Assembly: GCF_000421525.1 (NCBI RefSeq)
Contig: NZ_ATXE01000004.1
Coordinates: 186,001 to 250,000 of the forward strand
From: Aestuariimicrobium kwangyangense DSM 21549
GTDB taxonomy: Bacteria; Actinomycetota; Actinomycetes; Propionibacteriales; Propionibacteriaceae
Reading direction: 5' to 3'
Length of the DNA stretch: 64,000 nucleotides
A program made the translations under genes and the position numbers. The notes under the pieces were generated by a model. That model saw only the letters and a list, made by a program, of their open reading frames with translations. It did not search any database and had not been told where the DNA came from. Positions 2,458-58,208 of the stretch are shown one piece after another. Numbering within the stretch: the first letter of the stretch is position 1; every line of letters starts with the position of its first letter.

Positions 2458-5457
2458 ATGCACGACTTCGTCGCCCGCACCGAACACCGCCTCACCCGCT
2501 TCATCAACGAGCGTCTGCGCCAGCAGTTGTACCGGGACCGGGCCCGGGTCGAGGTCACCCACTGGGAGGCACCCGACGAACCGGTCAGTTTCGCCGAGGC
2601 CACTGCCCAGACGTTCGCCCCCTTCGAGGTGGGCACCCCCTGGGGGCCTCCGTGGGGAACCGTCTGGTTCCACGTCACCGGCACCGTGTCAGTCGGGTGG
2701 GGCAAGGAGGCCGACACGCGGCCCGAACTGCACGTCGACCTCGGTTTCGCCGGCGGGGGAACGGGGTTCACCTGCGAGGCCAACGCGTGGTCGGCCCAAG
2801 GCACCCTGATCAAGGCGCTCGAGCCGATGAACCGCTACGTCACCCTCGATGCCGGCCCCGGGGAGTCGTTCGAACTGTTCATCGAGGCTGCCGCCAACCC
2901 CGTCGTCCCCTCGTTCAACTGGTACCAACCCACCCCGGTCGGCGACAAGGCCACTGCTGGCACTGACCCCATCTACGTGGTGAACACCCTCGAGGTGGCC
3001 CTGCTCGACACCGGCGTGTGGGAGTTGTCGCAGGACGTCGACGCCCTGCGCGGGCTGATGCTGGTGCTGCCGGCCGAGTCGACCCGCCGCCACCAGATCC
3101 TGTCAGCCCTCGAAGACATGATGGACGCCGTCGACCCGCACGACCTGGCCGGCACCGCTGCCCGCGGGCGGGAGGTGCTCCGTCCCGCCCTCGAGTCACC
3201 GGCCGGGCGCAGTTCCCACGTCGTGCACGCCACCGGCCATGCGCACATCGACTCGGCCTGGTTGTGGCCGGTGCGCGAGACCATCCGCAAGTGTTCACGT
3301 ACGTTCTCGAACGTCATCGCCCTGATGGACGAGGACCCCGACCTCACCTTCGCCTGCTCGTCCGCCCAGCAGTACGAGTGGGTGCGCGACCACTACCCCG
3401 AATTGTTCGAGCGCATCCGCGAGAAGGTGGCCGAGGGACGATTCGTGCCGGTCGGCGGCATGTGGGTCGAGTCCGACACCAACATGCCGGGTTCCGAGGC
3501 GATGGTCCGCCAGTTCGTGCTCGGCACCCGCTTCTTCATCGACGAGTTCGGGTTCGAGCCCAAGGACGTCTGGCTGCCAGACAGCTTCGGCTACTCCGGT
3601 GCGATGCCGCAGATCGCCCGGGCTGCCGGCAAGGACTCCTTCCTCACCCAGAAGATCAGCTGGAACGACACGAACACCTTCCCGCACCACACGTTCTGGT
3701 GGGAGGGGATCGACGGCTCGCGCATCTTCACCCACTTCCCGCCCTCCGACACCTACAACTCCCACCTCTCCGCCGAGGAACTGGCCCGCTCGGAGCGGCA
3801 GTTCCGTGAGAAGGGACGAGCCACCCACGCACTCGTCCCCTTCGGTTGGGGGGACGGGGGTGGTGGCCCCACCCGAGAGATGATGGCTGCCGCCCGGCGC
3901 AAGGCCGATCTGGAGGGGTCACCCAAGGTGGTGGTCGACACCCCCGCCGAGTTCTTCGCGGCCGCCAAGGCCGAGCACGGCCACCTCGACACGTGGACCG
4001 GGGAGATGTACCTCGAGTACCACCGCGGCACCTACACCTCGCAGCACCGCACCAAGGCCGGCAACCGGCGCTCGGAGCACCTGCTGCGCGAGGCCGAACT
4101 CTGGTGGACGACCGCTGTCGTCCGTGAGGGTGCGACGTGGCCCAAGGAACAGTTCGACCGGCTCTGGAAGCAGGTGCTGTTGCAGCAGTTCCATGACATC
4201 CTTCCCGGGTCGTCCATCGCCTGGGTGCACCACGAGGCCGAGCAGCACTACGGGGCGATCGCCGCCGAACTGGAGGAACTGATCGCCGAGGCCGGTCGCA
4301 TCCTGCTGGGCGCCGGTGAGACCCCGTTCGTGCTGAACGCTCGCCCGTTCGCCGACCACGGTGTGCCGGCGCTCGGCGTCGCCGCGGCCACCGAACCGCG
4401 CATCGCGGAGGTCGCGTCGTCCGGTGACGGGTTCACGCTCAGCAACGAGGCGCTGCTGGTCGAACTGGACGCCAACGGATTGGTGACCCGGCTGTTCGAC
4501 AGGCGTGCCGGCCGCGACCTGCTCCCCCCGGGCCAGGTCTCGAACCTGCTGCAGTTGCACCGCGACATCCCCAACGAGTGGGACGCCTGGGACATCAACT
4601 CCCACTACAAGCAGGTGACCCGCGACCTCACCGAGGTGGTGTCGATCGCGACGGTTCCGGGCGGTGTGGTGATCGAGCGGAGCACCGGAGCCTCGTCCAT
4701 CACCGAGACGGTGACGCTGGACGAGGCAGGGTTGCACCTCGACTTCGACATCGACTGGCACGACCGGCAGAAGCTGCTCAAGCTCACCCTGCCGTTCGCC
4801 CTGCACGCACGCGAGGCCACCAGTGAGATCCAGTTCGGGCACCTGGCCCGTCCGACCTCGGTGAACACGTCGTGGGATGCGGCCCGCTTCGAGACCGTCG
4901 CCCACCGCTGGCTGCACGTGTCCGAGCCCGGGTACGGGGTGGCGCTCGCCAACTCCTGCACCTACGGCTACGACACCCTGCGCACGACCGATGGTGACGG
5001 CAACTCGGTCACCACCGTCCGTCCATCCCTGCTGCGGGCCCCGATGTTCCCCGATCCGGATGCCGACCAGGGTCATCACCAGCTGTCCTTCCTGCTGGTG
5101 CCCGGCGCCGAGGTGGGTGACGCGGTCGAGGCCGGTTACGCCGAGAACCTGCCCACGCGGGTACTGGCGGGTGCCCACGGGGTCGACCCGCTGGTCACCA
5201 TCGACAATCCCGCCGTGGTGGTGGAGGCCGTGAAGCTCGCCGAGGACGGCTCCGGTGACGTGGTCGTGAGGCTCTACGAGTCGCGTGGGGGACGAGCGGC
5301 CGCCGTCCTCGGCGTCGGTTTCGAGCACGGCCCGGTCGTCGCCACCGACCTGCTGGAGCGACCGCTGGCCACCGGGACCCGGAGCCCGCTGGTGGGTCAG
5401 GACCGGCTGGAGCTGCGGCCGTTCGAGATCGTCACCCTGCGGATCGGCCGGGCCTGA
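2458..5457 (+). CDS. Alpha-mannosidase, glycoside hydrolase family 38
   Basis: A 999-residue cytoplasmic GH38 enzyme that removes alpha-linked mannose with retention of configuration, zinc-dependent. No signal peptide is visible. The N-terminal 250 residues match the bacterial/fungal type with a beta-domain before the catalytic barrel. The zinc-site motif HAHIDSAWL gives H261, H263 and D265; the nucleophile is D375 in WLPDSFGYS; a further zinc-site histidine lies in QFHDILPGS near residue 580. The C-terminal 400 residues form the beta-sandwich domains. The ATG at 2458 follows the only good promoter in the gap. The upstream sugar permeases suggest import of mannosides, trimmed inside the cell. 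It is convergent with purB, one base apart. Confidence 0.95.
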   Translation: MHDFVARTEHRLTRFINERLRQQLYRDRARVEVTHWEAPDEPVSFAEATAQTFAPFEVGTPWGPPWGTVWFHVTGTVSVGWGKEADTRPELHVDLGFAGGGTGFTCEANAWSAQGTLIKALEPMNRYVTLDAGPGESFELFIEAAANPVVPSFNWYQPTPVGDKATAGTDPIYVVNTLEVALLDTGVWELSQDVDALRGLMLVLPAESTRRHQILSALEDMMDAVDPHDLAGTAARGREVLRPALESPAGRSSHVVHATGHAHIDSAWLWPVRETIRKCSRTFSNVIALMDEDPDLTFACSSAQQYEWVRDHYPELFERIREKVAEGRFVPVGGMWVESDTNMPGSEAMVRQFVLGTRFFIDEFGFEPKDVWLPDSFGYSGAMPQIARAAGKDSFLTQKISWNDTNTFPHHTFWWEGIDGSRIFTHFPPSDTYNSHLSAEELARSERQFREKGRATHALVPFGWGDGGGGPTREMMAAARRKADLEGSPKVVVDTPAEFFAAAKAEHGHLDTWTGEMYLEYHRGTYTSQHRTKAGNRRSEHLLREAELWWTTAVVREGATWPKEQFDRLWKQVLLQQFHDILPGSSIAWVHHEAEQHYGAIAAELEELIAEAGRILLGAGETPFVLNARPFADHGVPALGVAAATEPRIAEVASSGDGFTLSNEALLVELDANGLVTRLFDRRAGRDLLPPGQVSNLLQLHRDIPNEWDAWDINSHYKQVTRDLTEVVSIATVPGGVVIERSTGASSITETVTLDEAGLHLDFDIDWHDRQKLLKLTLPFALHAREATSEIQFGHLARPTSVNTSWDAARFETVAHRWLHVSEPGYGVALANSCTYGYDTLRTTDGDGNSVTTVRPSLLRAPMFPDPDADQGHHQLSFLLVPGAEVGDAVEAGYAENLPTRVLAGAHGVDPLVTIDNPAVVVEAVKLAEDGSGDVVVRLYESRGGRAAAVLGVGFEHGPVVATDLLERPLATGTRSPLVGQDRLELRPFEIVTLRIGRA

Positions 5458-18225: not shown

Positions 18226-18256
18226 GTCTGCGGGTGCCCACCGCCGGGGCACGGCA

Positions 18257-18390
18257 CCAGTTGCCCTCGTGCGGCCCAGTTGCCCTCGTGCGGCACCAGT
18301 TGCCCGCGCCCGGCGCAGTTGCCCTCGTCCAGGGGTAGGGCAGGTGCAGCGGAAGAGGGCAATTGGGGCCGGAATGGGGCAACGGGCGAG
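18257..18390. repeat. Inverted 19/20-nt repeat array, element 1
   Basis: Outward-reading units starting GGGCA on both sides of a 13-nt core (18325-18337, TCGTCCAGGGGTA). Left arm, minus orientation: GGGC ends at 18324, 18305, 18285 and 18266 (steps 19, 20, 19). Right arm, plus orientation: GGGC starts at 18338, 18357 and 18377 (steps 19, 20). Left units read GGGCAACTG then end near CACGA. The 280-nt gap holds this element and the weak promoter region of the next gene. The innermost units could pair in RNA (CAGTTGCCC with GGGCAGGTG). Confidence 0.8.
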
Positions 18391-18505: not shown

Positions 18506-19426
18506 ATGGATCCCATCACCACTGCCGAACTGACCTCCTCGGGCCACTCCCGACGCGACATCGCCCGTCTCTGCGAGAGCGGCCACCTCGTCCGCATCGC
18601 GCGGGGTGTCTACCTGCGGGGCGCCACTGACCGGACGACCCGACACCTGGCCCTGGCCTCGTCCCGGACCCACGCCCTGGCCTTGGAGAGTGCCGCACTC
18701 GCGCACGGACTGCCCGTGATCTCCACACCCGAGCAGGTGCACACGGTGCTCGCCGGCAGCGGACGTTCGCGCGGCCGACCTCGTGAACTTCAACTGAGTG
18801 GTCCGCTCCCGCCGCGGCATCTGGTGACCCTCGGGTCCCAACTCGTCACCAGTCGAGCGCGCACGGTCGTCGACCTCACCCGACTGCGCGGTCTGGAGCA
18901 GGGGCTGGTCACGTGGGACGCCGCCCGGTGGACGGCTCGGATCGAGGGGCGTCTCGAGACCTTCGACGCCGAGGTCGCCGACGTGATCGCGGTCATGTGT
19001 CGGCGCAAGGGCATCGGGCGTGCCCGGCAGGCGCAGGGACTGTCGTCCGCCTACTCCCAGAGCCCGGCCGAGACCCGCAGTCTGTTCGCGATCCGCACGC
19101 TCGCCCTGCCCGAGCCGCTGCAGCAGTTCGAGATCCGCGACCAGCACGGACGCATCATCGGCGCCAGCGACTTCGCCTGGGAGAGCGAGGGCGTGCTGGG
19201 CGAGTACGACGGCGAGGGCAAGTACTGCGAGCTGGCTCGACCCGGTGAGTCACCGGCCGATGTGGTGCGCCGGGAAAAGCGTCGCCAGGAGGCGATGGAG
19301 ACCGAGGGCTGGGTGTTCGCACGCTGGGGCAAGGAGGAGTTGGCGCGCCCACACCTGCTGCGGGACCGGATCCTCGCCGCCTTCAGGATCGCTGCAGGGC
19401 GGGGGACGATGCTGCGCGCCGGTTGA
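18506..19426 (+). CDS. AbiEi-like winged-helix protein with Vsr/DUF559-like nuclease domain
   Basis: A 306-residue protein. The N-terminal 45 residues are the AbiEi-type antitoxin wHTH (SRRDIARLCESGHLVRIARG, then VYLRG), a middle region of about 120 residues is shared with that family, and the C-terminal 120 residues look like a Vsr-like PD-(D/E)XK domain: E189 in SPAETRS, D222 in SDFAW, E233 and D235 in GEYDG, then a basic helix and EGWVFARWGKEEL. All candidate acidic residues are present, so it may be an active DNase. No AbiEii toxin gene lies beside it. The ATG at 18506 is preferred over an in-frame TTG (18494) or GTG (18500). Repeat arrays lie immediately on both sides. Confidence 0.75.
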   Translation: MDPITTAELTSSGHSRRDIARLCESGHLVRIARGVYLRGATDRTTRHLALASSRTHALALESAALAHGLPVISTPEQVHTVLAGSGRSRGRPRELQLSGPLPPRHLVTLGSQLVTSRARTVVDLTRLRGLEQGLVTWDAARWTARIEGRLETFDAEVADVIAVMCRRKGIGRARQAQGLSSAYSQSPAETRSLFAIRTLALPEPLQQFEIRDQHGRIIGASDFAWESEGVLGEYDGEGKYCELARPGESPADVVRREKRRQEAMETEGWVFARWGKEELARPHLLRDRILAAFRIAAGRGTMLRAG

Positions 19427-19450
19427 GTGGGGGTCCAGCGTCTCGGCTTT

Positions 19451-19670
19451 GCCCTCGTTGGGTTCCACCTGCCCTCGTGCGTTGCAGTTGCCCCCGGTCA
19501 GGGGCAGGGCAACTGGACGGAACGCGGGCAACTGGCGCGTAACCGGGGCAGCTGCGACGGAATGCGGGCAGGTACGACTGAACGCGGGCAGCTGGGACGG
19601 AACGCGGGCACCTGGGACGTAACCGGGGCAGGTGCGACGGAAGGCGAGCAGGTGCACCAGAACGCGCACC
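19451..19670. repeat. Inverted 19/20-nt repeat array, element 2 (longest)
   Basis: Left arm, minus orientation: GGGC ends at 19493, 19474 and 19454 (steps 19, 20). Core CCGGTCAGGGGCA at 19494-19506. Right arm, plus orientation: unit starts at 19507, 19526, 19546, 19566, 19586, 19606, 19626, 19646 and 19666, that is one 19-nt step then eight steps of exactly 20 nt at most. Typical unit GGGCAGCTGGGACGGAACGC; the last two units are decayed. CAGTTGCCC (19485-19493) and GGGCAACTG (19507-19515) are perfectly complementary. The array fills most of the 358-nt gap between the AbiEi-like gene and typA. Confidence 0.87.
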
Positions 19671-19673
19671 CCT

Positions 19674-19702
19674 CCCCCCCCCCCCCCCCCCCCCCCCCCC
19701 CC
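19674..19702 (+). repeat. C homopolymer of 29 nt
   Basis: Twenty-nine consecutive C bases, preceded by CACCCCT, at the end of the long repeat arm and 82 nt before the typA start codon. No other homopolymer of this kind occurs in the window. The exact length is doubtful because sequencing of such tracts is error-prone. Confidence 0.9.
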
Positions 19703-57990: not shown

Positions 57991-58010
57991 CTTCGGGGCG
58001 TGGTCGAATC

Positions 58011-58153
58011 TGCCCGGCTTCGGCGCACCTGCCCCCCTTCGGGACAGGCTGCCCCCCTATCGCGCATCTGCCCTATCCCTGTCCGGTGGCAACTGCTCCC
58101 AATCAGGGCAACTGGTGCGGAACGAGGGCAACTGCTGAGGAACGAGGGCAAGG
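58011..58153. repeat. Inverted 19/20-nt repeat array, element 3
   Basis: Minus-oriented units have GGGC ends near 58073, 58054, 58034 and 58015 (steps 19, 20, 19); plus-oriented units start at 58087 (TGGC), 58106, 58126 and 58146 (steps 19, 20, 20). The 13-nt core at 58074-58086 reads CCGGACAGGGATA on the minus strand, the same type as in elements 1 and 2, so this copy is inverted. Units such as GGGCAACTGGTGCGGAACGA are close to those near 18.3 kb. It lies between the DUF1707 terminator and proC. Confidence 0.82.
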
Positions 58154-58208
58154 CGAGCGGCCAGGCGCCCGGTCGGGTCGTCCGGCACGTGGCGCCCGGC
58201 CGTCGCCC

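Follow-up and report, generated by a model that had tools for sequence, protein, structure and literature searches.

A single-copy gene for a predicted AbiEi/Vsr-type nuclease lies between two members of a dispersed family of palindromic arrays, and similar pairings recur across actinobacteria

The window analyzed here is a stretch of 64,000 nucleotides from Aestuariimicrobium kwangyangense DSM 21549 (contig NZ_ATXE01000004.1, positions 186,001 to 250,000; the genome is called G000 below). It contains a gene at 18506-19426 that is flanked by two related, non-coding elements, one upstream (18252-18385) and the other downstream (19446-19666). Both elements are built from short units that run outward from a central core in mutually inverted orientation, and a third copy of the element is found elsewhere in the window. 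The features to which we refer are the following.

18252 to 18385, + strand: w18, the upstream partner element; core 18325-18337; left units at 18324, 18305, 18285 and 18266; right units at 18338, 18357 and 18377.
18506 to 19426, + strand: single-copy gene for a protein with an AbiEi-type module (residues 1-181) and a predicted Vsr/I-Bth0305I-type nuclease domain (residues 184-298), as assigned from Pfam, fold and alignment.
19446 to 19666, + strand (by its core): w19, an inverted array of three left and eight right units (unit readout; profile).
19446 to 19493, - strand: left arm of w19, with units proceeding outward from 19493, 19474 and 19454 (unit readout).
19494 to 19506, + strand: core of w19, 13 nt, asymmetric, CCGGTCAGGGGCA (family consensus about CCGNNCAGGGRYA).
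19507 to 19666, + strand: right arm of w19, eight units with steps of 19, 20, 20, 20, 20, 20 and 20 nt.
19669 to 19702, + strand: C tract, adjoining the outermost right-arm unit.
58006 to 58154, - strand (reverse orientation): w58, the third copy in the window; core 58074-58086; located between convergent genes.

The right arm of w19 had been singled out in a preliminary description as a periodic sequence with one 19-nt step from 19507 followed by steps of exactly 20 nt up to the C tract. This reading was confirmed by the unit starts (GGGCA..TG), which lie at 19507, 19526, 19546, 19566, 19586, 19606, 19626 and 19646; the steps are thus one of 19 nt and then six of exactly 20 nt. The left arm is the inverted counterpart of this arm around the core at 19494-19506, and the arm first described is half of one element among at least 26 copies, with nothing peculiar to it. 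A family profile matched w19 at G000:C4:205448-205553 (E 3.6e-23), w19 itself being a member of the model. TRF reported a period of 20 (8.1 copies) for the right arm and also a period of 80 (1.8 copies, 88% match). The second signal is a four-unit block duplication, units 1-4 having given rise to units 5-8, and it is because of this en bloc duplication that the arm looks so strict. Strict 20-nt spacing did not survive as a general rule: it is local to this right arm, whereas the family mixes or alternates 19 and 20 nt. The C tract spans about 34 nt, 29 of them uninterrupted. It is the only C/G run of 11 nt or more in the window and in the examined loci of the same genome, and it may be hypervariable or a weak point of the assembly.

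Other copies of the element were first detected by a paired-unit pattern search of the genome. At least 26 copies are present; 25 were read out and compared, and the 26th was located by profile at G000:C4:172105. A pattern of four units and the 13-nt core at fixed spacing, allowing at most one mismatch, had 26 matches in the genome vs. none for the reversed control. The same pattern had no match in 96 relatives or in 84,980 other genomes, and searches for the exact family of the window genome returned nothing from IMG/VR and no plasmid match. All copies share one layout, in which units (GGGCANNTG plus about 10 nt) extend outward, mutually inverted, on both sides of a 13-nt asymmetric core (about CCGNNCAGGGRYA); the smallest copies measure 109 nt. 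GGGCA is near-invariant in the units, and the two bases that follow it vary, as do the spacers. Among 50 arms, the first step is 19 nt in all 50 and the second is 20 nt in 47, with later steps of 19 or 20 nt and few exceptions. This regularity bears out the earlier suggestion that unit length is constrained despite drift in sequence. The accompanying idea that arms grow by copying whole units also held, as the extra units visibly arose by exact or near-exact tandem duplication of a single unit (20 nt), a pair (39 nt) or a block of four (80 nt).

With genes called by a simple codon model, all 25 examined copies were intergenic. They occur in gaps of every type (convergent, codirectional and divergent) and show no orientation preference relative to the genes, and a terminator or promoter-linked role was rejected given the absence of such a bias. 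The copies are spread unevenly over the contigs: 19 were found on C1 (1.46 Mb), five on C4 (0.35 Mb), two on C2 (0.74 Mb) and none on C3 (0.43 Mb). Close pairs of elements seem to be commoner than expected of 26 randomly placed copies. Two such pairs, each with members about 1.0-1.2 kb apart, surround ordinary genes, which encode a 244-aa protein (L073, cores near 3000 and 4170) and a 223-aa protein (L079, near 3070 and 4110). The notion that element pairs act as mobile gene cassettes was considered for e724k/e725k and e1432k/e1433k and rejected, as the enclosed genes are ordinary.

Does the inverted layout reflect a fold in RNA or sites in DNA? An RNA hairpin or a bidirectional terminator would fit with the folding energy of the strand, which is better than that of shuffles (z -3.2 and -2.2). 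However, arms from the same copy in the window family were 67% identical vs. 69% when arms were shuffled between copies (p(>=) 0.993), that is, they are less complementary than shuffled ones; at non-motif arm positions, z was -2.9. RNAalifold found a two-sided change in just one of 19 predicted pairs, with a covariation term of the wrong sign, and there was no Rfam match in the window. The missing gene-orientation bias also speaks against a terminator. There was no covariation between arms in the TGCA and TACCC families of a same-genus relative (G001; z 1.3 and 0.0), and it was weak in the family of Nakamurella silvestris (z 1.4). An exception is the GGGCA family of G001, with co-variation at its innermost arm positions, which pair better than shuffled ones; this could reflect either a folded palindrome or symmetric binding. 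Taken together, we regard an RNA hairpin or terminator as extremely improbable. The idea that conservation reflects a hairpin, in RNA or as a cruciform, was rejected for the window family; in view of the inner positions of the G001 GGGCA family, a folded palindrome may have a role in some families. Because the motif is conserved in the window family and the arms do not co-vary, the conserved entity would be a set of DNA sites rather than an RNA fold; judged from these alignments, the units resemble binding sites for a protein on DNA.

That a protein reads the units had been part of the preliminary description, which envisaged binding at every second helical turn. The first half of this proposal gains indirect support from the short conserved motif in each unit, from the lack of arm co-variation, and from the adjacent AbiEi-type/nuclease gene, which is tied to such arrays across actinobacteria. 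The helical half fits only roughly: two turns of B-DNA take up about 21 bp, and steps of 19-20 bp fall short of that.

We therefore turn to the protein encoded at 18506-19426. Its only Pfam match is AbiEi_4, at the N-terminus (PF13338, 36.5 bits vs. a cut-off of 25). Alignment of 31 homologs revealed the invariant residues E189, D222, E233-x-D235-G, K239-Y240, E257 and R260, a pattern that we take to be typical of PD-(D/E)xK nucleases; with these conserved acidic residues at its putative active site, the protein is a predicted nuclease. An AlphaFold2 model had a mean pLDDT of 95. In this model, residues 184-298 superpose on the catalytic domain of I-Bth0305I (3r3p; Z 11.4, rmsd 2.6 A over 97 residues) and on Vsr (1cw0; Z 8.8), which indicates a Vsr/I-Bth0305I-type catalytic-domain fold as far as the predicted structure goes. 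Residues 1-181 superpose on the AbiEi antitoxin 6y8q (Z 11.1, rmsd 6.6 over two domains), which also ranked at the top in Foldseek; the Pfam match and this similarity both identify an AbiEi-type wHTH antitoxin module. Neither a gene for an AbiEii nucleotidyltransferase toxin nor one for a modification enzyme was recognized beside the window gene, the neighbors of which encode a Mak_N_cap protein and TypA. PADLOC labeled all 31 homologs AbiEi. Because no AbiEii partner was recognized at the window gene and the family carries an additional nuclease domain, this label is probably a widespread mis-annotation in defence-system surveys. The window genome encodes a second homolog (G000:C1:1391048), which is 37% identical to the window protein. 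This second gene (L212) is flanked by its own, different pair of matching arrays with GTGGCTGGC units.

We then examined whether repeats flank such genes elsewhere. Homologs were chosen by protein similarity alone, and the 350 nt upstream of each gene were locally aligned with the 350 nt downstream; the threshold was the 99th percentile of 453 control ORFs (about 1%). Flank-flank repeats above this threshold were present at 34 of 40 unique Propionibacteriales loci and at 62 of 76 named actinobacterial loci drawn from a scan of 84,980 genomes. About 15-18% of the homologs had no flank repeat by the threshold used, and some homologs may be plain regulators or dead copies. With flanks paired from different homologs as the reference instead of control ORFs, 48 of the 76 loci exceeded the 99th percentile. 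Flanks of different homologs were alike only at protein identities of about 50% or more, where shared descent of the locus also contributes. A scan of the homologs' flanks for inverted arrays with steps of 11-40 nt found a step of 19 in 49 flanks, 20 in 36 and 39 in one (85 of 86 arrays at 19 or 20), and none when the flanks were shuffled. As the steps are 19 or 20 throughout while the sequences differ, we conclude that the geometry is universal and the sequence is not. Taxa with the link between nuclease and palindromes include Rhodococcus, Nocardia, Pseudonocardia, Geodermatophilus, Nakamurella and Propionibacteriaceae. When stretches of 120-140 kb from three genomes (G012, G020 and G034) were scanned de novo for arrays, none of the non-coding hits was convincing.

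The nearest relative examined was G001, the TypA of which is 73% identical to that of the window genome. Its orthologous gene (L107:6569-7501) is flanked by two related elements, at L107:6341 and 7678. G001 has five homologs in all; the second lies between a different pair of elements (L108:16342 and 17441), and the others are likewise paired.

Cognate copies were counted genome-wide for four families, which gave 26, 21, 11 and 258 copies. Three nuclease paralogs of G001 each have their own dispersed family, comprising about 12 (GGGCA), 21 (TGCA) and 11 (TACCC) copies; for the latter two, the controls were 0, as were the counts in seven other genomes. In G006, the same family occurs on both sides of its gene and at about seven places in the genome, and its congener G030 yielded neither a nuclease homolog nor an element match. 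The largest count, 258 (control 0), was that of N. silvestris. When 24 of these copies were aligned, conservation ended sharply about 38 nt from the center on both sides, and none of the 24 was inside a predicted ORF. A discrete, sharp-ended unit in unrelated contexts matches what copying predicts. Two copies in this genome, L329:612 and L329:3615, have a common left flank and differing right flanks, as would be seen if a segmental duplication had its junction at the element. Some N. silvestris (G097) copies, e.g., L326:616, have a different spacer and core (TCTGCAGT), which suggests that there are subfamilies within the 258.

From these data, we think it likely that the dispersed palindromic element and the nuclease gene form a two-component system in which the element is mobilized in trans. 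The proposal builds on what was observed directly, namely the element family, its geometry, its growth by unit duplication, the way it accompanies the gene, and the repeated occurrence of this arrangement, with dispersed cognate copies, across actinobacteria. We saw no insertion event, empty site or target-site duplication. The fold and the conserved residues suggest DNA binding at each unit and nuclease activity, and the copy number and sharp copy ends point to mobilization in trans. Specifically, each unit (GGGCANNTG plus about 10 nt) would be bound by one protomer via its AbiEi-like part. The inverted layout would bring two or more protomers into opposing positions on either side of the core, over which the nuclease subunits would meet and nick or cut the DNA. 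The binding mode of AbiEi and Rv2827c fits such an arrangement, because a 13-nt core separates inverted units of about 20 nt. After cutting, the single-copy gene, acting in trans, would have the element copied into further intergenic sites, much as a RAYT is proposed to mobilize REPINs, and the arms would lengthen by tandem duplication of whole units. We also lean, by a small measure, toward a broader view: a widespread actinobacterial class in which every one of numerous AbiEi-Vsr nuclease genes, present in single copy, has a separate dispersed family of 19/20-nt registered palindromic arrays; these would be trans-mobilized, RAYT/REPIN-like in function, and of independent origin.

The main rival is a regulatory reading: the flanking arrays would be operators through which the gene controls itself, and the dispersed copies would serve as the binding sites of a regulon or titrate the protein, with the protein acting mainly as a DNA-binding regulator and its nuclease serving elsewhere, e.g., in defence. 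AbiEi-type antitoxins do autoregulate via inverted repeats (PMC7319586), the N-terminal part of the window protein has their fold, and PADLOC's uniform calls for the 31 homologs would be apt. Autoregulation explains why there is an array upstream but leaves the downstream one unaccounted for, however, and gaps of all three kinds (convergent, codirectional and divergent) harbor dispersed copies, which show no bias in orientation to the genes. Up to 258 sharp-ended copies also go far beyond the needs of a regulon, and no AbiEii toxin gene was recognized beside the window gene. We thus consider this account unlikely.

Two further accounts assign the arrays to the chromosome's own protection or organization. 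If the nuclease attacked invading DNA, the chromosomal arrays might protect against it or control it, and both the Vsr-like nuclease fold and the several paralogs per genome, with distinct specificities, would suit this self-marking or restriction role. We hold it to be quite improbable: no modification enzyme was recognized beside the window gene, and this role would not account for how many copies there are, for their sharp ends or for arm growth by duplication of units. Closer to the preliminary description is an architectural role, in which a nucleoid protein on the repeated units organizes the chromosome. Regular spacing and intergenic positions agree with this, but 19-20 bp does not correspond to whole turns of B-DNA, and the element's sequence varies with the associated nuclease gene, even to the point of several families in one genome, rendering the idea very improbable.

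To our knowledge, dispersed palindromes in bacteria have so far been tied to one type of enzyme, the RAYT tyrosine transposases. Here, a nuclease family that is now annotated as AbiEi antitoxin and is unrelated to RAYT is associated, across actinobacteria, with palindrome families of its own, pointing to an unrecognized, REP/transposase-like two-component system of gene plus palindromes. In the open-licence literature, we found no description of DUF559/AbiEi proteins with palindromes or REP elements, nor of REPINs in actinobacteria. If the proposal is true, a large, mis-named protein family would gain a likely function, the maker of intergenic repeats in high-GC genomes would be identified, and a naturally diversified set of protein/DNA specificities on a fixed site geometry would be at hand. 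It also becomes directly testable what moves or maintains those bacterial palindromes that are not tied to RAYT.

How does the arrangement compare with known systems? The closest parallel is REPIN/RAYT, in which, as in Pseudomonas fluorescens SBW25, distinct REPIN groups each occur beside their own single-copy RAYT (PMC3116915). The window genome likewise has dispersed extragenic palindromes, intergenic in position, with cognates flanking a single-copy enzyme gene, and distinct families in one genome each accompany their own gene. Unlike in REPIN/RAYT, the enzyme is an AbiEi/Vsr-type nuclease rather than a Y1 tyrosine transposase, and the element consists of 19/20-nt units arrayed in register on either side of a core. 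A search for PF01797 (Y1_Tnp) had no match in G000, G001 or G006 and did find the domain in five of 14 control genomes. RAYT was accordingly rejected as the enzyme, the gene beside the elements having another fold, and the system is not a REPIN/RAYT member because no Y1 transposase is present. AbiEi antitoxins resemble the window protein in their N-terminal fold, and known AbiEi-type proteins bind inverted repeats 3 or 13 bp apart (PMC7319586; 6y8q): AbiEi binds two 23-bp repeats separated by 3 bp; in the case of Rv2827c, the paired 23-bp repeats are 13 bp apart and each takes up one monomer (PMC7319586). In contrast to AbiE, the window protein has an additional C-terminal nuclease domain and no recognized AbiEii neighbor, and its arrays occur on both flanks as well as dispersed. 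I-Bth0305I and Vsr-like homing endonucleases share the catalytic-domain fold, but the window gene is free-standing between two elements, not in an intron or intein, and it combines an AbiEi-type fusion with dispersed palindromes. Finally, MITE-like repeats such as ERIC and NEMIS are also small, non-coding, intergenic palindromes; they differ from the present element in three respects: its registered arms vary in unit number, its core (in the window family) is asymmetric, and it is found on either side of a dedicated nuclease gene.
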